Source: Actinomycetota bacterium
GTDB taxonomy: Bacteria > Actinomycetota > Humimicrobiia > Humimicrobiales > Humimicrobiaceae
DNA: 7,081 bases
Reading direction: 5' to 3'
Assembly (NCBI GenBank): GCA_016783995.1
Contig: JADHVN010000075.1
Coordinates: 1-7,081, forward strand
Shown here: in pieces, positions 1 through 7,081 of the stretch
Layout of the letters: every line of letters begins with the position of its first letter
Position numbering within the stretch: the first letter of the stretch is position 1
Notes under the pieces: generated by a model
What the model saw: the letters and a program-made list of their open reading frames with translations, nothing else
Told to the model about the DNA's origin: nothing
Database searches by the model: none
Position numbers and translations under genes: made by a program

Positions 1-139
1 TAAAATCTAAATACAACGGCATTTTTCTGATAGATGTCCCAAAGCCAAAGGAAGTTGTAAAGAAATTAAAAGCAGTAAGCAAGAAAAATAAAGAACTATT
101 TGGTAAAACTTTTCGCTATGTCCCGGTAGAGAAGTGGGT
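1..139. repeat. Left copy of exact 139-bp terminal direct repeat
   Basis: Bases 1-139 are identical, base for base, to 6943-7081 at the other end of the window. The repeat lies inside a coding sequence (THUMP gene) and the reading frame continues correctly across the join. This is the signature of a circular molecule written out with an overlap, giving a unit length of 6942 bp. An odd overlap length is also what a k-mer-based assembler leaves on a closed graph path, so the repeat itself is probably not a biological element. Confidence 0.97.
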
Positions 140-401
140 AACCTCAAAAGTACCTGATATGCAGAAAGCGGTAAAGTCATTTGTTCCAAAAATTGGTGAA
201 AATGAAAAATGGAAAATGGATTTGGAAAAAAGATATTATGATAAATATGACTTCAATGAATTGATTATTAAGTTGACGGATGTTGTTAATAGAAAAAAAA
301 TTGACCTGGAAAAACCAAAGAAGATAATAAAGGTTGAGATCATAGGTAAAAATGCTGGGATTTCACTGCTGGAGCCAGGTGAGCTGCTGGTAGTTTCTTA
401 G
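3..401 (+). CDS. THUMP-domain protein, C-terminal part (5' part at right end of window)
   Basis: Open from the window edge to TAG at 399-401. Joined to 6840-6942 through the terminal repeat it encodes a 167-residue protein, of which this part is about residues 36-167. An internal ATG at 159 is not the true start, because the frame and the family similarity run through it. The segment from about residue 73 has the look of a THUMP RNA-binding domain: an R-Y-V-P-V-E-x-W strand, a helix, I-G-E-N-E-K-W, the basic E-K-R-Y-Y motif (about 110-114), a helix, a D-L-E-K-P turn and a final I-K-V-E-I-I-G-K-N-A-G-I-S strand pair. THUMP domains bind the acceptor region of tRNA and recruit modifying activities. 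Stand-alone Tan1-like members assist tRNA cytidine acetylation in eukaryotes, and relatives occur in archaea. The protein has no catalytic domain of its own, so it would act as an RNA-binding adaptor. The family call comes from remembered motif pattern, not a search. Confidence 0.8.
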   Translation, partial: KSKYNGIFLIDVPKPKEVVKKLKAVSKKNKELFGKTFRYVPVEKWVTSKVPDMQKAVKSFVPKIGENEKWKMDLEKRYYDKYDFNELIIKLTDVVNRKKIDLEKPKKIIKVEIIGKNAGISLLEPGELLVVS

Positions 402-529
402 TAGAAAAAAGGTATTGCATAAATATAAGAACTTTGATAAATACTCTATCAGTGTATCTTAATAAAACTTTGATAACTATTATATATATTAGACAAAGTT
501 AGTGTACTGTGTCTAACACTTCTTTACAT

Positions 530-546
530 TTGGAGATCTTCTCCAA
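530..546. repeat. Perfect 7-bp inverted repeat (hairpin)
   Basis: TTGGAGA (530-536), a TCT loop, then TCTCCAA (540-546). It is followed by mixed sequence rather than a T-run, so an intrinsic terminator is not supported on either strand. It may be an operator-like dyad or part of the IS flank. Confidence 0.5.
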
Positions 547-615
547 TATACATTCTGCAGGTACACTCCACACAAATACCCGGGGATTTTGGTTGTGATT
601 GTCCAGGTAGTCTTT

Positions 616-630
616 ACTGACTTTGTCAGT
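616..630. repeat. Perfect 6-bp inverted repeat (hairpin)
   Basis: ACTGAC (616-621), a TTT loop, then GTCAGT (625-630). It lies about 80 bp beyond the transposase stop codon and may belong to the IS end or act as a weak transcription stop. On the plus strand it is followed by TGATTTT, which is a poor U-tract. Confidence 0.5.
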
Positions 631-711
631 TGATTTTGCAAATCCCGCACAAAAAGGGCGAATTTATACAAAAAAGTGTGCATTTTGCTACTACTATTTC
701 TTCTTATAAGT

Positions 712-1230
712 TTAGTTCTTCTTCGGGAGTAATGTTTTAGGGGGTTTAATTTTTAAGATTCTTAAGGTCTTATGGGCAAGCTCTGTTGCTTTGGCTTTAA
801 TAAAGTAGGCATTTTGATTAAAAGATACTTTTACAAAATTGCATGAATTTAGTGCTTCTCTTATTTTCTCTGCAGAAACGGCTATACCATTTTTATTTAG
901 CCTGAACTCAAGATGTCTTCCAAAAAGGAACGACAAAAAGCATACCACAAAATGGCCTTTAATTCTTTTTTTCGTCCAGACAAATATGGGACGCACCTCA
1001 AGACTTGATTTCATTATTCTAAAAGACTGCTCTATTTTCCATAAGTTATTGTAAGCAGAAAGTATATCTTCAGCATCCAGGTTATCCTGGTTTGTGGCTA
1101 TGGCATAGTAGCCGTCAAAGCGGCTTTCTTTTTCTATTGCAGCAGCATCTAGAAAATAGTTAATATCTGAACTTTCCTGTTTTATATATTTTTTAGCGCC
1201 TCTTCTGTTTGAAGTTTTTATCTTAATTCC
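712..1230 (-). pseudogene. IS1634-type (IS4-superfamily) DDE transposase, C-terminal remnant
   Basis: The minus-strand frame is open from about 1263 down to TAA at 712-714. Only the part from about 1230 or 1204 downward looks like transposase. In order it reads R-R-G-A-K-K-Y-I, F-D-G-Y-Y-A-I-A-T-N, then Y-N-N-L-W-K-I-E-Q-S-F-R-I-M-K, then L-E-V-R-P-I-F-V-W-T and R-I-K-G-H-F. The Y-x2-L-x3-E-x6-K stretch is the YREK-like signature, and its E (codon 1030-1032) is the third catalytic acid of the RNase H-fold DDE triad. W-T-x-x-R-I-x-G-H is typical of the IS1634 branch. Only about 170 of the usual 500-600 residues remain. The first two catalytic aspartates, the start codon and the upstream IS end are absent, so it cannot be active. 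The ATG at 1014 opens a 100-codon frame, but it is an internal methionine and not a real start. The remnant is head-to-head with the PBP and cuts off that gene's 5' end. Confidence 0.88.
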
Positions 1231-1231
1231 C
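1204..1231. other. Junction between transposase remnant and truncated PBP gene
   Basis: Transposase-like sequence (minus strand) extends up to about 1204-1230. PBP-like sequence (plus strand) starts by about 1231 with L-P-S-L-E-A-L, the segment that normally follows the membrane anchor of class A PBPs. Neither frame is complete at the join. This marks either an old IS insertion followed by deletion or a chimeric assembly join. No target-site duplication can be seen because only one side of each partner is present. Confidence 0.65.
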
Positions 1232-3222
1232 TTCCTTCCCTGGAAGCACTTACCCCATCTCCTCTAGCTCAGACTTCCAAGGTATATGCCATAGATGGAA
1301 CCTTAATTGCTGAGTTTCATGCCGAAAAAAATAGAGAGATCATAGATTTTAAAGAGATGTCACAGTATATAAAAGATGCTATAATTTCTGTAGAAGATAA
1401 AAGGTATTATGAGCATCAGGGGGTAGACTATATAAGAATTCTCGGAGCCCTGGTAGCTGATATTAGGGCTGGTGAAATAGTGCAGGGAGGAAGCACCATC
1501 ACACCAAGCAATATGTTAAAAATGTATATTTTACTCCTGAGCAAACCATGAAAAGAAAAATAAACGAAGCTGCCATATCCATAAAGCTGGAAAGACATTA
1601 TACCAAGGATAAAATACTGGAGATGTACCTTAATACCATATATTTAGGTTCAGGTACCTATGGGGTGGAAAAAGCATCCCAGGTCTACTTTGGAACCAGT
1701 GCCAAAGATCTTACTCTACCTCAGGCTGCACTTCTAGCTGGACTAGTCCGTGCACCAGAAAGCTATTCGCCCTTTAACAATATTGAGAAAGCTACAAGCA
1801 GGAGAAACCTGGTATTAAGGCTTATGCATGAGCAAGGTTTTATTGAAAGCAACCAGTATCTTGAAGTTATAGCTTCCCCAGTAGTATTAAGTGAATATGG
1901 ATTAAAAGATAATCTGGATTATAGTGATAGAATAGCACCTTATTTTGTGGACTATATAAAAGAGATTCTTTATATGAAAAAATTTACTGATTATGATGTA
2001 TTCAAAGGTGGATTAAAGATATACACCACCCTTGATTTGGATCTTCAAAATAAAGCTGAGGAGGCAATAAAGACTGTTTTTCCCCAGGAGATTGGACCCT
2101 CCTATGCCCTTATATCCATGAACCCCGGTAACGATTATATCCATGCCTTAATTGGTGGGAAGGATTATTCAGAGAGCAAATTTAATATAGCCATCCAGGG
2201 AAAGAGGCAGCCCGGCTCTATTTTTAAAACAATGGTTTTAATGGAATCGCTAAACCAGAACCTATCTCCGAATACCAAATATAACCCAAATGGCCCCATA
2301 ACCATTGATATGCCCAGTGACCCTGACTGGGTAGTAGACAACTATGGGGGTAAGAAATATGAAGATGAAATGTCGGTAGTAGACGCTACTATCTATTCGG
2401 TAAATGTGGTCTATGCACAGCTTATGATGAAAGTGGGTGCAGATAATGTAGATAGACTCTGCAGTCAAATGGAAATCTCTGATATTGGAAATAACCCCAC
2501 TATTGCCCTGGGAGGACTTGAGTTTGGAATCACCCCCCTGGATGTTTGTAAGGCATTCTCCACTCTGGCCTCAGGAGGCCATTATTATGAGCCGGTTGCC
2601 ATTCTTAAGATTGCAGATTCAGCAGACAATATTTTATATGAATACGATAACCAGGAAAATGAATCAAATAAGGAAATACTCGAAGAGCCAGTAGCATATT
2701 ACATCACCCAGATTCTAAAGAGGGTAATTACAGAGGGAACCGGTAAAGGTGCCAATATTGGTGTAGGCCAGTGGCTGGAAAAACTGGTACTACTACCAAC
2801 AATGCAGAGACCTGGTTTGGTAGTTATACTCCAGAGCTTGCCACAGTGGTCTGGATGGGCTATAAAGATTCAAGCAGGAAGATGGAACCCATAAATGAGC
2901 GCACTGTAGTAGAGGTGGTACGTTTCCTGCAGATATATGGAGGGAATATATGATGAGGGCTCTGGAAGGCAAGGAACCCAAAGATATATGTAATGTCTAC
3001 AACAAGGTAGAAGTGCCTGATGTAGTGGGAAAAGATAAGATTTTAGCCATAGAGGAGCTAAAAAACCTGGGGTTTGTGGTTTTATTTTATCCAGATCCCG
3101 ACTTATTGGGTAAGGTCTCAAATCAGATACCAGAGGCTGGAAGATACCTGGATTATGATTCTGAGGTTTCTATTGAATTAAAAGCTGAAAACAACTCTGT
3201 TGAAAATCAAGCAGAAGAATAA
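1213..3222 (+). pseudogene. Class A penicillin-binding protein (GT51 + transpeptidase + PASTA), 5'-truncated and frameshifted
   Basis: This bifunctional peptidoglycan synthase would polymerise glycan strands from lipid II and crosslink stem peptides on the outer face of the membrane. The segments are 1213-1503, about 1509-2770, 2771 to about 2913, and about 2914-3222 (stop 3220-3222). The GT51 domain shows the catalytic E in S-V-E-D-K (codon 1393-1395), G-G-S-T-I-T, R-K-I-N-E-A, M-Y-L-N-T-I-Y-L-G and R-A-P. The transpeptidase domain shows S-I-F-K with the active serine at 2217-2219, S-V-N at 2397-2405 and K-T-G-T at 2780-2791. One PASTA domain follows, about 3007-3183, starting V-E-V-P-D-V-V-G. 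Three breaks interrupt it: two extra bases near 1504-1508, where T-Q-Q-Y-V-K-N is expected; one base lost near 2769-2771, just before V-A-G-K-T-G; and one base lost near 2912-2914, before G-G-T-F-P-A. The first break leads to a stop at 1549-1551. The start codon and N-terminal anchor are missing at the IS junction. About 660 residues can be reconstructed. Confidence 0.93.
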
Positions 3223-3244: not shown

Positions 3245-4417
3245 ATGCATACCAATACGACAATTATAAATAAAATCTTTATACTGCTTTTTATTTTAAT
3301 GATTATTACTCCTCTGGTTATCCCAAAAAAAACAATAGGAGCCCAGGAGCTTGAAGAAGAGCTTGATCTAATAAGAAGTGAAAAAGAAAGAACCCAGGAA
3401 AGACTGGATGAAATTAAAAAGAAGGAAGCAGATTATTTTAAGCAGGTAAAGGAAGTTGAAGAAAACCTGATTTCCTCACTCTCTGAGCTGGAAGAACTTA
3501 ATTTAAAACTGGCAAAAGCCAAGAGCTCCATTGATGAGATCACTATAGAAATAATGGTTAATGAAGAAGAACTGATAGTAACTGAGCAGGAACTACAGGA
3601 TATGACCGGTGCCTTAAATAACAGGGTCATTGCTATTTATAAAAGTGGCAGTAAAAATTATTTGGACCTACTTATTGGTAGTAGGGATTTTATTGATTTT
3701 TTCTCAAAATTAAAGCTTATGAATATACTGGCAGGCAAGGATATGGAAATGCTAAAAGAAATCAAAGTCAGGAGGCAGTCCACCCTCTCAATTAAGAACA
3801 ATCTTATTGATCTTAGAGAGAAAGAGAAAAAACAGAGATCAGAAATTGAAAAGCTGATATCCCAGGCTGAGGTAAAAAAAAGAAACATAGAAGAGATATA
3901 TGGTGAAAAACAAAGTATTCTGTCAAGTACCAAAGCCAGCAAAGAATCTCTAATGGAGCTTGAGAGGCAGCTTTCAGCAAAAGAAGCAGAGATTATAAAA
4001 GTTCTTGAAAGTTACAGGTATGGTTCTGCTCCTGCGGGGAAGTTCCAGTGGCCCACAAACGGCAGGATATCGTCAGGATTTGGGTACCGGGGAAGTTCCC
4101 TGTCAGGTACCAGAAGGTTCCATTCAGGAATTGACCTCTATGCTCCCCTGGGCACAGCAGTAATTGCTGCTGATAGTGGCCAGGTTATACTAGCAGGATA
4201 TGAGGGTGGATATGGTTATGCAGTACTGATATATCATGGAGGTGGATTTGCCACCTTCTATGCACATCTTTCGGGTTTTGCCGTATCGCCCGGACAAATG
4301 GTGGAAAGAGGACAGTTAATAGGGCATATAGGTGTTACTGGTTGGACTACTGGCCCACATCTGCATTTTGAAGTAAGAATTAATGGAATAGCCCAGAATC
4401 CATTAAATTATCTTTAA
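3245..4417 (+). CDS. Secreted coiled-coil M23 (LytM/EnvC-type) murein endopeptidase
   Basis: The 390-residue product starts at ATG 3245. A longer frame from TTG 3200 would overlap the PBP end by 23 bases. I prefer 3245 because the signal peptide then begins properly (N-region to I-I-N-K, hydrophobic I-F-I-L-L-F-I-L-M-I-I core, cleavage near T-I-G-A/Q-E, about residue 33). Neither start has a good Shine-Dalgarno sequence, so translation may be coupled to the PBP. Residues about 35-265 are charged heptad-rich coiled coil (E-E-L-D-L-I-R-S-E-K and so on), as in EnvC and PcsB-like proteins, where it controls the enzyme. The M23 domain starts near F-Q-W-P (residue 267) with S-S-G-F-G-Y-R. All zinc and catalytic residues are present: H293 and D297 in H-S-G-I-D, H341 in Y-A-H-L, and H372/H374 in H-L-H-F-E. 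It should therefore be an active zinc endopeptidase cutting murein crosslinks outside the membrane, or an activator of one. The intact frame contrasts with the broken PBP upstream. Confidence 0.94.
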   Translation: MHTNTTIINKIFILLFILMIITPLVIPKKTIGAQELEEELDLIRSEKERTQERLDEIKKKEADYFKQVKEVEENLISSLSELEELNLKLAKAKSSIDEITIEIMVNEEELIVTEQELQDMTGALNNRVIAIYKSGSKNYLDLLIGSRDFIDFFSKLKLMNILAGKDMEMLKEIKVRRQSTLSIKNNLIDLREKEKKQRSEIEKLISQAEVKKRNIEEIYGEKQSILSSTKASKESLMELERQLSAKEAEIIKVLESYRYGSAPAGKFQWPTNGRISSGFGYRGSSLSGTRRFHSGIDLYAPLGTAVIAADSGQVILAGYEGGYGYAVLIYHGGGFATFYAHLSGFAVSPGQMVERGQLIGHIGVTGWTTGPHLHFEVRINGIAQNPLNYL

Positions 4418-4446: not shown

Positions 4447-6207
4447 GTGCATAATATAAAGCATCAGTTACTAGAAAACAAAGTAATAATAAGACTGAAT
4501 GGCAAGATCTGCCAAACTGGTGAAGAGCTTATTTTAAGCGAGCTGTTTCACAAAATTCTGGAAAGGTGCCTAAAGAGATTAGAAACGAAAAATTCAATTC
4601 TTCTTAGTTCTTTTTCCAAAAAGAATTTAAATAAAAAAGATATTGATTTACTGGTTGAAAGCTTAAAGCTGCTGCTGGAACTGTCTATAGGTCAAGTAAA
4701 GGAAAATATAGAAGGGTTTAAAAGATTATTAAAGGATGAGCAGGTTTTTAATAATTTTATCGAATATCTCTATAACTACTGGAGAAGTTTTAAAAGATTT
4801 ATAATATGTGAAAGGGATTCAGTAGAAGACGATAGGGATACAAAGCCATACCGCATCTTTAATGAAACTATAGAAAAGCTAACCCATCTTGTTAGATATA
4901 TTTACAGAAATATTCAGGAAAATATCACAGGAAACCATCCAAGAGTATACAGGCAGGTCAGGGCAGGTGCTGAGGTTGCAGCTATAGCTAAAAGTAAAAA
5001 GATTTTATTTCCTAATGATGGAAGATATAATAAATTAAGTAACATTTCTGTAATTCGTCAGGTTCTTCTCTACCCACCACTGGTTTTAAATACACCTATG
5101 AACAAAAGATCAGGCGAGTTTATTAAAGTAGATTTAAATCCCTTGGATCTGGTAACTATTGACAGAAGCGAATGGATATGTTATCCGGCAAAGGTAGGAA
5201 AATTAACCATCCTTATTTATTTTCATTATAAATTTTTTGAACTTGGGTTTTCCCTTTGCAATCTTTTTGAGCTTGCAAGCGGTAAAAACCTGGAAAAGAA
5301 ACCGGATGGGATATATTTGTTTGGAGTAGGAGAAAATTCTTTAGATAGTTTTGGTACAATCCCAACGGTCTTTTATGACGACGTAGTAAATGATATGCTG
5401 GTTGCTGCGGTTCCTGGAAGAGATGAATTTGGTTACTTTGGGTATCTTAAAAAAATGGTTTTAACCCTTCACAATATTAAGATGATGAAAAAAGGACTCT
5501 TTCCATTCCATGGAGCTCTGATAAAATTAACTTTTATAAATGGCTTACAAAAAATATTACTCATAATTGGAGATACTGGAGCGGGAAAGTCCGAGCTAAT
5601 TGAAGCTTTTAGAATTGTTGGAAAAGGTGAGCTTAGCGATATTAACGTCATTGCAGATGATATGGGATCAGTAGAAATTGACAAGAAAGGAAATATCAAA
5701 GGTTATGGTACTGAAATTGGAGCATTTCTAAGACTTGATGATCTTCAACCAGGTTATGCTTTTGGCCAGATGGATAGGGCAATTTTTATGAATCCCAGTC
5801 TTATCAATGCTAGATTAATACTACCTTTAACTCCTTTTGAAAGTGTCATAGAAGGCCTAAAAATTGATTATATTTTATACGCCAATAATTACGAACAAAT
5901 AGATGATGAACATCCAATTATTGAAAAAATTGAAAATTATGAAGATGCTATAAAATTATTTGGTGAGGGTACGGTTATGAGTAAGGGGACTACCACCTCT
6001 ACGGGTATTGTCCACTCCTATTTTGCCAATATATTTGGCCCACCGCAATATAAGGAGTTACATGATAAGCTTGCACTAAAGTATTTTAAGGCATTTTATA
6101 TAAAGAAAATATTTGTGGGACAGGTACGAACCAGACTGGGTATTGAGGGCTTTGAAATAGAAGGTCCAAAGGAAGCAGCTAAAGAGTTATTGAAAGTTTT
6201 AAGGTAA
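4447..6207 (+). CDS. P-loop protein of the HPr kinase/PEP carboxykinase superfamily, unknown substrate
   Basis: The 586-residue protein starts at GTG 4447 and ends at TAA 6205-6207, with no signal peptide or membrane segment, so it is cytoplasmic. The C-terminal third carries a Walker A loop G-D-T-G-A-G-K-S-E (375-383), resembling HPr kinase G-x-S-G-x-G-K-S-E. A strand ending V-I-A-D-D-M-G (401-407) matches the D-D kinase-2 motif of HPr kinase and PEP carboxykinase. G-T-E-I-G-A-F-L-R-L-D-D follows (421-432), then G-T-V-M-S-K-G-T-T-T-S-T-G and Y-F-A-N-I-F-G-P-P (508-533), which recalls the A-G-T-E-x-G and F-x-x-C-F-G-x-P region of ATP-dependent PEP carboxykinase. Residues 1-150 are helical and charged with no recognised domain. 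N-H-P-R-V-Y-R-Q-V-R-A-G-A (163-175) is a likely conserved block. It is much longer than HPr kinase (about 310 residues), and no HPr protein or PTS gene is nearby. A kinase or carboxykinase-like role is inferred from the loop motifs; the substrate is unknown. It follows the M23 gene closely, probably in one operon. Confidence 0.75.
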   Translation: MHNIKHQLLENKVIIRLNGKICQTGEELILSELFHKILERCLKRLETKNSILLSSFSKKNLNKKDIDLLVESLKLLLELSIGQVKENIEGFKRLLKDEQVFNNFIEYLYNYWRSFKRFIICERDSVEDDRDTKPYRIFNETIEKLTHLVRYIYRNIQENITGNHPRVYRQVRAGAEVAAIAKSKKILFPNDGRYNKLSNISVIRQVLLYPPLVLNTPMNKRSGEFIKVDLNPLDLVTIDRSEWICYPAKVGKLTILIYFHYKFFELGFSLCNLFELASGKNLEKKPDGIYLFGVGENSLDSFGTIPTVFYDDVVNDMLVAAVPGRDEFGYFGYLKKMVLTLHNIKMMKKGLFPFHGALIKLTFINGLQKILLIIGDTGAGKSELIEAFRIVGKGELSDINVIADDMGSVEIDKKGNIKGYGTEIGAFLRLDDLQPGYAFGQMDRAIFMNPSLINARLILPLTPFESVIEGLKIDYILYANNYEQIDDEHPIIEKIENYEDAIKLFGEGTVMSKGTTTSTGIVHSYFANIFGPPQYKELHDKLALKYFKAFYIKKIFVGQVRTRLGIEGFEIEGPKEAAKELLKVLR

Positions 6208-6261: not shown

Positions 6262-6426
6262 TTATTTATCTAAAAATACAAAGTTTAGAATATACTCCTC
6301 TTTATCTTGAATAGAATTTTTTGCAGTTGCGCTGATATTGTTAACTCCGTAGGATAGCTCACTTTTTGGAACCTCGGAAAATATTAGTAGCTCATAATGA
6401 TCGCTTCCTATTTTATTAATATCCAT
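6262..6426 (-). CDS. Small unrecognised ORF or gene remnant (54 codons)
   Basis: The minus-strand frame runs from ATG (6424-6426) to TAA (6262-6264). It is also open a few codons further upstream, to a stop at 6448-6450. The product, with stretches such as Y-E-L-L-I-F-S-E-V-P, S-Y-G-V-N-N-I-S-A-T-A and Y-I-L-N-F-V-F-L-D, has a balanced composition with alternating strand-like residues, like the end of a beta-rich domain. That is unlike a chance reading of AT-rich DNA. There is no Shine-Dalgarno sequence before the ATG, so it is more likely the 3' remnant of a larger lost gene than a complete small gene. It is convergent with the P-loop gene. I do not recognise the family. Confidence 0.35.
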   Translation of the reverse strand: MDINKIGSDHYELLIFSEVPKSELSYGVNNISATAKNSIQDKEEYILNFVFLDK

Positions 6427-6648
6427 GTTTTTATTATTCAATTTAATTTAATATCTTTAATGGCAAAAAAAGACCTTAAACTACATAATATCAGTAGAAT
6501 ATCAATAGCTGAAGATTTAATAGTGCTGTAGGGCTCCGGCATCTTAGGGGCTTACTTAAAAAATACTCACTTAAAGATTATCTTTGCTAACAATTTTAAG
6601 AAAATTTATTCAAATCAAATAAAACATCGTAATATCTGTAATGACCAT

Positions 6649-6776
6649 GTCACATAATATATTTCTTCTTGGGACGGTGTTGTATTATACATCAATTCAT
6701 TATAGTGATTTAAAGATTACACTTACAGGCTCCAGTTGTTTTATAATCTAGAGGTATAAAAAATCAATTATGTGAC
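6649..6776. repeat. Perfect 10-bp inverted repeat with 108-bp spacer
   Basis: GTCACATAAT at 6649-6658 and its exact reverse complement ATTATGTGAC at 6767-6776. Pairing does not extend on either side. It could be a pair of regulator sites around a promoter, the ends of a very small degenerate element, or chance in AT-rich DNA. Confidence 0.4.
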
Positions 6777-6839: not shown

Positions 6840-7081
6840 ATGAAGGTAAAACTTGTAGTAACATATGATCCAGCTCATATTGCCAGCAGCAGGGAGAGTG
6901 TTGAAAACTTGATGAAGGAGATAAAGGTTAAACCAAAGTTTCTAAAATCTAAATACAACGGCATTTTTCTGATAGATGTCCCAAAGCCAAAGGAAGTTGT
7001 AAAGAAATTAAAAGCAGTAAGCAAGAAAAATAAAGAACTATTTGGTAAAACTTTTCGCTATGTCCCGGTAGAGAAGTGGGT
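6840..7081 (+). CDS. THUMP-domain protein, N-terminal part (runs off the right end)
   Basis: This is the 5' part of the gene described at 3-401. The start is ATG 6840, set by the strong AGGAG. The window ends inside codon 81, and bases 6943-7081 repeat 1-139, so the whole gene is 6840-6942 plus 1-401, 504 nt including the stop, 167 residues. Residues 1-70 (M-K-V-K-L-V-V-T-Y-D-P, then a helix, then a Y-N-G-I-F-L-I-D-V strand) fit the small alpha/beta N-terminal domain that precedes THUMP in Tan1-like proteins. The basic stretch at about 49-70 (K-x-x-V-V-K-K-L-K, K-K-N-K) suits RNA contact. The gene stands alone on its strand, with its own promoter region, separate from the cell-wall genes. Its family is best known from archaea, so horizontal transfer is possible, but its AT-rich base composition resembles the neighbours. 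Confidence 0.82.
   Translation, partial: MKVKLVVTYDPAHIASSRESVENLMKEIKVKPKFLKSKYNGIFLIDVPKPKEVVKKLKAVSKKNKELFGKTFRYVPVEKW
6943..7081. repeat. Right copy of exact 139-bp terminal direct repeat
   Basis: Identical to bases 1-139. Together they imply a circular unit of 6942 bp or a head-to-tail tandem copy. Confidence 0.97.

Follow-up and report, generated by a model that had tools for sequence, protein, structure and literature searches.

Insertion-sequence-mediated excision circles and tandem amplifications of chromosome segments are known, as are small cryptic plasmids. End overlaps of assembler k-mer length on circular-looking contigs are also already known. According to the legend of Extended Data Fig. 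3 of the CheckV paper, end repeats often have lengths such as 55, 77 and 99, which are likely assembler k values, and a passage of the same paper states that circular templates are apparently broken by assemblers at a random location (PMC8116208). The COBRA paper, with its 'self_circular' contigs, gives an end overlap of maxK for metaSPAdes and MEGAHIT and of maxK-1 for IDBA_UD, and the authors' own IDBA_UD runs used maxk=140 (PMC10914622). In the corresponding passage of Chen et al. 2020 (PMC7111523), the n and n-1 rule is reversed between IDBA-UD and metaSPAdes. In these passages, the two sources disagree on the name of the assembler but agree on the principle. A section of the PlasX paper lists 154,680 human-gut contigs that were seemingly circular yet not predicted to be plasmids; according to its authors, fewer read pairs supported these contigs, which may be viruses or ICEs (PMC10914615). 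A small contig that looks circular and carries ordinary genes is readily reported as a new plasmid.

The window (the whole stretch of DNA that was analyzed, 7,081 nucleotides; Table 1) resembles the contigs with k-length end overlaps, as far as these are described in the CheckV legend and under COBRA 'self_circular', in its exact repeat, its assembler-set length and its arbitrary cut within a gene. The example lengths named in the legend (55, 77, 99) exclude its 139 bases, which fit the IDBA_UD maxk of 140 given in the COBRA passage. With small cryptic plasmids the window shares size and apparent circularity. It differs from them in that the scanned open reading frames (ORFs) contain no replication, mobilisation or partition family, and the cargo is chromosomal in type and partly decayed. 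Like the excision circles and tandem amplifications mediated by insertion sequences, it combines chromosomal genes and transposase sequence on a loop, but its transposase genes are truncated remnants, and the comparison is one of sequence. Taken together, overlap length, cut position and gene content suggest that the contig is an assembly product or a loop derived from the chromosome. These three checks can precede the claim of a replicon for any contig of this kind. We consider it probable that the overlap was written by the assembler, with a length of k-1 or k, and that the contig represents a closed path on chromosome-type, Humimicrobiia-like DNA and no established replicon.

Table 1. Features of the window, with positions counted from its first base.
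Feature	Position	Strand	Evidence
THUMP-domain (TAN1-like) gene, 5' part, continues over the join at base 1	6840..6942	+	P0121 match, join alignments
THUMP-domain gene, 3' part, stop at 401	1..401	+	PF02926, E 0.00022
Terminal overlap, left copy, inside the THUMP gene	1..139		self-comparison
Terminal overlap, right copy	6943..7081		self-comparison
Transposase C-terminal remnant	499..624	-	DNA identity of 84% and 86% to two segments of the relative genome G026
IS1634-family transposase, C-terminal third, cut inside the gene	613..1226	-	NCBIfam NF033559, E 7.5e-43
Decayed PBP1A gene	1219..3222	+	comparison with relatives
Intact M23 peptidase with PcsB-type coiled coil	3245..4417	+	Pfam; identical to P0241 over 390 aa
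Intact 586-aa protein, PEPCK-like family	4447..6207	+	names of relatives; no Pfam match
Short possible VapC-like remnant (weak)	6262..6447	-	NCBIfam NF047863, E 0.0037, 17.6 bits (cut-off 140)

The initial annotation had described an exact 139-bp terminal repeat and a THUMP frame that runs uninterrupted across the join, and both were confirmed. In a self-comparison of the 7081-base contig, bases 1-139 were identical to 6943-7081, and this was the sole self-overlap in the range of 10-3,540 bases. On the given strand, 115 25-mers were present twice, every one of them from the terminal pair. The end match is far too long to have arisen by chance. When the ends are joined on the overlap, the contig becomes a circle of 6942 bases, on which the THUMP gene reads from the ATG at 6840 through the join to the stop at 401 with its frame intact. 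Its product is 96% identical to P0121 over the full length (167 aa). With PF02926, the THUMP domain of the window scored just above the cut-off and that of P0121 just below. The window encodes a stand-alone 167-aa THUMP protein in a bacterial lineage, and one source names its relatives tRNA(Ser,Leu) C12 N-acetylase TAN1. Woesearchaeota were found among the more distant matches.

A 544-base stretch spanning the join (located after base 143) was aligned to the THUMP loci of eight relatives. The DNA alignment was unbroken over the join in five of them (69-75% identity), including locus L030, where it begins just 15 bases before the join. In the remaining three loci it covered the part after the join only. 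At the protein level, the alignment spanned the join in all eight relatives (from residue 1 or 4 to residue 169 or 170). Because the loci and proteins of the relatives align across it, the cut would lie at an arbitrary point in an ordinary gene. Judged from these alignments, the join appears to be no rearrangement breakpoint, and the position of the cut looks arbitrary. An otherwise unique sequence with an arbitrary cut, as expected for an overlap made by an assembler, was found.

The overlap length equals k-1 for k=140, a published setting of IDBA_UD, and also k for k=139. A comparison with assembler k values, as had been proposed in the initial annotation, thus favors an overlap written by the assembler, possibly IDBA_UD. 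The conclusion stands for either value of k, while the name of the assembler is less sure. Graphs with k=140 were built for toy cases derived from the window (seven and four cases). A closed circle gave one 7081-base contig with a 139-base self-overlap. The same contig was obtained from a tandem array of ten with its flanks dropped, and from a segment bounded by two direct copies of 478-1224 but lacking both outer flanks, also when a 200-base piece of 478-1224 served as the flanking repeat. It was still obtained when one flank was present; by the graph rule, the contig ends would in that case be expected at the repeat and not in the THUMP gene. This contig was likewise obtained from a chromosome with a true direct repeat of 139 bases, a length of k-1, but not at k=120, 128 or 142. 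The observed contig was not produced at k=140 by a circle together with an equally deep linear copy, by a repeat-flanked segment with both flanks present, by a plain single copy or by a twofold tandem, whose largest segment contig had 6943 bases and no self-overlap. The initial annotation had left the choice between a circular molecule, a tandem duplication and a closed assembly path; the closed path agrees with the k=140 graph, and a simple duplication into two tandem copies of equal depth found no support. If k was 140, the contig is most simply a closed path in the assembler graph, and its overlap carries no biology. This contig would be the product of a circle, of a high-copy tandem array or of a segment between repeats whose flanks were not assembled.

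We suggest that a de Bruijn assembler would have printed a closed path as a linear contig, leaving an overlap of k-1 (k=140) or k (k=139), and that the 139-base repeat would then not be a biological terminal repeat. The path may have been closed by the assembler through a repeat, for example the transposase remnants at 499-1226, with the outer flanks unassembled. It may also have been closed by a chromosome-derived tandem array or an excised circle in the cells.

The gene content of the window is chromosomal in type: the THUMP, M23 and PEPCK-like genes are intact, PBP1A is decayed, and transposases are present as remnants. The named relatives of the THUMP protein included Candidatus Hydromicrobium (75% identity), which NCBI taxonomy places in the class Candidatus Humimicrobiia of the Actinomycetota, and those of the M23 protein included Candidatus Humimicrobiaceae (57% identity). 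Several relatives of the 586-aa protein are named phosphoenolpyruvate carboxykinase by their sources; the Pfam scan of this protein gave no match. Relatives of similar identity were also found in Omnitrophota, Spirochaetes and other records. We infer that the window derives from a Humimicrobiia-like actinomycetote. Among 40 genomes of the class of G001, eight had THUMP and six the PEPCK-like gene at E values of up to 0.001. At the stricter limits of 1e-60 and 1e-100, PBP1A or a paralogue was detected in 36 genomes and M23 in 30, respectively. Judged by eye, the sole pair of window genes on one contig was a second PBP paralogue and M23 in G010, about 23 kb apart, in a survey where many contigs were short and could hide shared neighbourhoods. 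In G009 (PEPCK, THUMP and one M23) and G010 (PEPCK and PBP), the genes are 6 kb or more away from the contig ends, and the other window genes were absent there.

For PBP (0.09; 25 of 30 loci) and M23 (0.17; 27 of 30 loci), coding-strand GC skew equaled the mean of the chromosomal homologues, and for PEPCK it was close, at 0.19 versus 0.08-0.18 in homologues (three of four loci). The THUMP piece, taken as bases 139-401 only, had a skew of 0.37 versus -0.04 to 0.15 in seven of eight relatives. Loci without a frame passing the filter were left out of these comparisons (five of 30 for PBP, three of 30 for M23, and one each for PEPCK and THUMP). A cumulative GC-skew test for an origin was dropped, since the skew follows the gene strand as in the chromosomal homologues, which holds for PBP and M23 and approximately for PEPCK.

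A self-replicating 6.9-kb plasmid with housekeeping-type genes, replicating via host proteins or an unrecognised origin, would give exactly such an isolated cycle at k=140, and the intact genes of the window all lie on one strand. However, families of replication, partition or mobilisation proteins were absent from the 17 of 26 ORFs of at least 50 aa that were scanned (14 by Pfam and three more by PHROGs only; the other nine lie inside the THUMP, PBP, M23 or PEPCK spans) and from the few shorter open frames included. The Rfam search of the window matched no family, and hence no described antisense-RNA control, and the tRNA search found none. Neither a replication initiator nor a known RNA-controlled origin was thus detected by these searches. 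No iteron-like array was present among the 20 of 28 direct-repeat families shown, the repeats including tandem repeats and 25 of 33 inverted pairs shown contained nothing origin-like, and there was no excess of DnaA-box-like sites (one versus 2.45 expected). The window had no DNA match among 72,556 plasmids. In plasmid protein searches, which covered the PEPCK-like protein and P0121, P0121 had no match and PEPCK only one (37% identity, in a 252-kb Limosilactobacillus record); beyond this, no similarity to known plasmids was seen. Moreover, the protein cluster represented by P0241, built at 90% identity and possibly including the window itself, comprises three member sequences and eight contigs, the longest of 23,544 bases, which may carry a variant of the M23 protein. 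A contig longer than the circle favors a location on the chromosome in at least one assembly, and a 6.9-kb plasmid alone would hardly account for the contigs of this cluster. A 6004-base contig encodes a PEPCK-like protein that differs from that of the window at two positions. A decayed PBP1A gene and transposase pieces would also be poor plasmid cargo. The 'unusual small replicon' suggested in the initial annotation therefore was not supported, and a self-replicating plasmid is unlikely. A real 6.9-kb circle of an uncultured actinobacterial lineage, built from chromosomal THUMP/TAN1-like, cell-wall hydrolase and PEPCK-like genes and lacking a recognised replication gene, is likewise improbable. 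That the 139 bases are a true biological direct repeat, such as a phage terminus or the end of a mobile element, would agree with their exactness and with the same contig arising at k=140 from a direct repeat of length k-1, and the M23 domain matched phage endolysin and tail families among 28 PHROGs in a search with ten proteins. The M23 domain is widespread in bacteria, and apart from it only the PBP piece (E 1.7e-17) and, weakly, the IS piece had a PHROG match. The repeat is part of a coding gene whose DNA is colinear with the chromosomes of relatives, and a length of k-1 would be an accident. No match was found in the phage DNA search, and IMG/VR contained no relative of PEPCK, M23 or the THUMP relative P0121, nor the left-end 40-mer; viral hallmark genes and viral relatives were thus not found. 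We regard a biological repeat as very improbable.

An assembler-written overlap may also have a counterpart in the cells, namely a chromosome-derived circle or high-copy tandem array formed by recombination between repeat copies. This is one form of the preferred reading and not an addition to it, and we propose it tentatively, as the less likely form. A tandem array whose low-copy flanks were dropped gives the same contig, transposase remnants are available at 499-1226, and the PlasX section indicates that circular-looking contigs other than plasmids are common (PMC10914615). On the other hand, a circle accompanied by an equally deep linear copy and a twofold tandem both failed to give the contig, and nothing in the analysis indicates a raised depth. 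Some observations count against a purely technical closure of the path. For an isolated cycle to form, the reads must normally contain junction k-mers, so a true circle predicts the same contig. The contig also ends in the THUMP gene, whereas a collapsed repeat with one flank left would break at the remnants. Against a chromosomal place of the DNA stand the GC skew of the THUMP piece, which is above that of the relatives, and the chance that the 23.5-kb contig may carry only a variant of M23.

The PBP1A gene lacks its N-terminal part compared with relatives, lost at the joint with the IS1634 piece. Relative to L127, it contains three separate 2-base insertions near 1505, 2761 and 2911; those near 1505 and 2761 were also seen in comparison with L126, which ends there. 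After the third insertion the frame is again the starting one, and part of the PASTA region is gone near 2953-3030. Seven relatives have open frames of 939-963 aa, and the eighth (569 aa) is cut by a contig end. The codon-position ratio of the PBP pieces (positions 1 and 2 over 3) averaged 0.83 (0.59-1.08) in the window versus 0.73 (0.52-0.97) in the 56 ordered pairs of eight relatives. Judged by this codon pattern, which is still near that of the relatives, the decay looks recent. The same ratio was 1.52 versus 0.82 for M23 and 1.22 versus 1.06 for PEPCK (window versus relatives). The M23 value could reflect faster protein change in the lineage of the window, or a paralogue.

The IS1634-family piece is 81% identical at the DNA level to L119, where a frame of 540 aa is open. 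It runs into PBP1A within its own reading frame, with a few bases common to both, as seen by eye. The adjacent remnant had no match in Pfam, NCBIfam and PHROG searches; by its motif it looks IS630-like. Between 499 and 1226 on the minus strand, an IS1634-family C-terminus thus adjoins, or lies inside, a probable IS630-like C-terminus.

The clusters P0251 (M23, 59%) and P0040 (PEPCK-like, 61%) each comprise two contigs with a longest of 5306 bases from the same source. They may share one contig with an M23-PEPCK neighbourhood like that of the window, or this may be a coincidence. The weak VapC-like match, for which Pfam and PHROG searches gave no match, sits between PEPCK and THUMP in a stretch without other recognised genes. 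An inverted repeat with 19-base arms (6649-6667 and 6758-6776), 84% complementary and 90 bases apart, possibly represents the ends of a small element, or chance.
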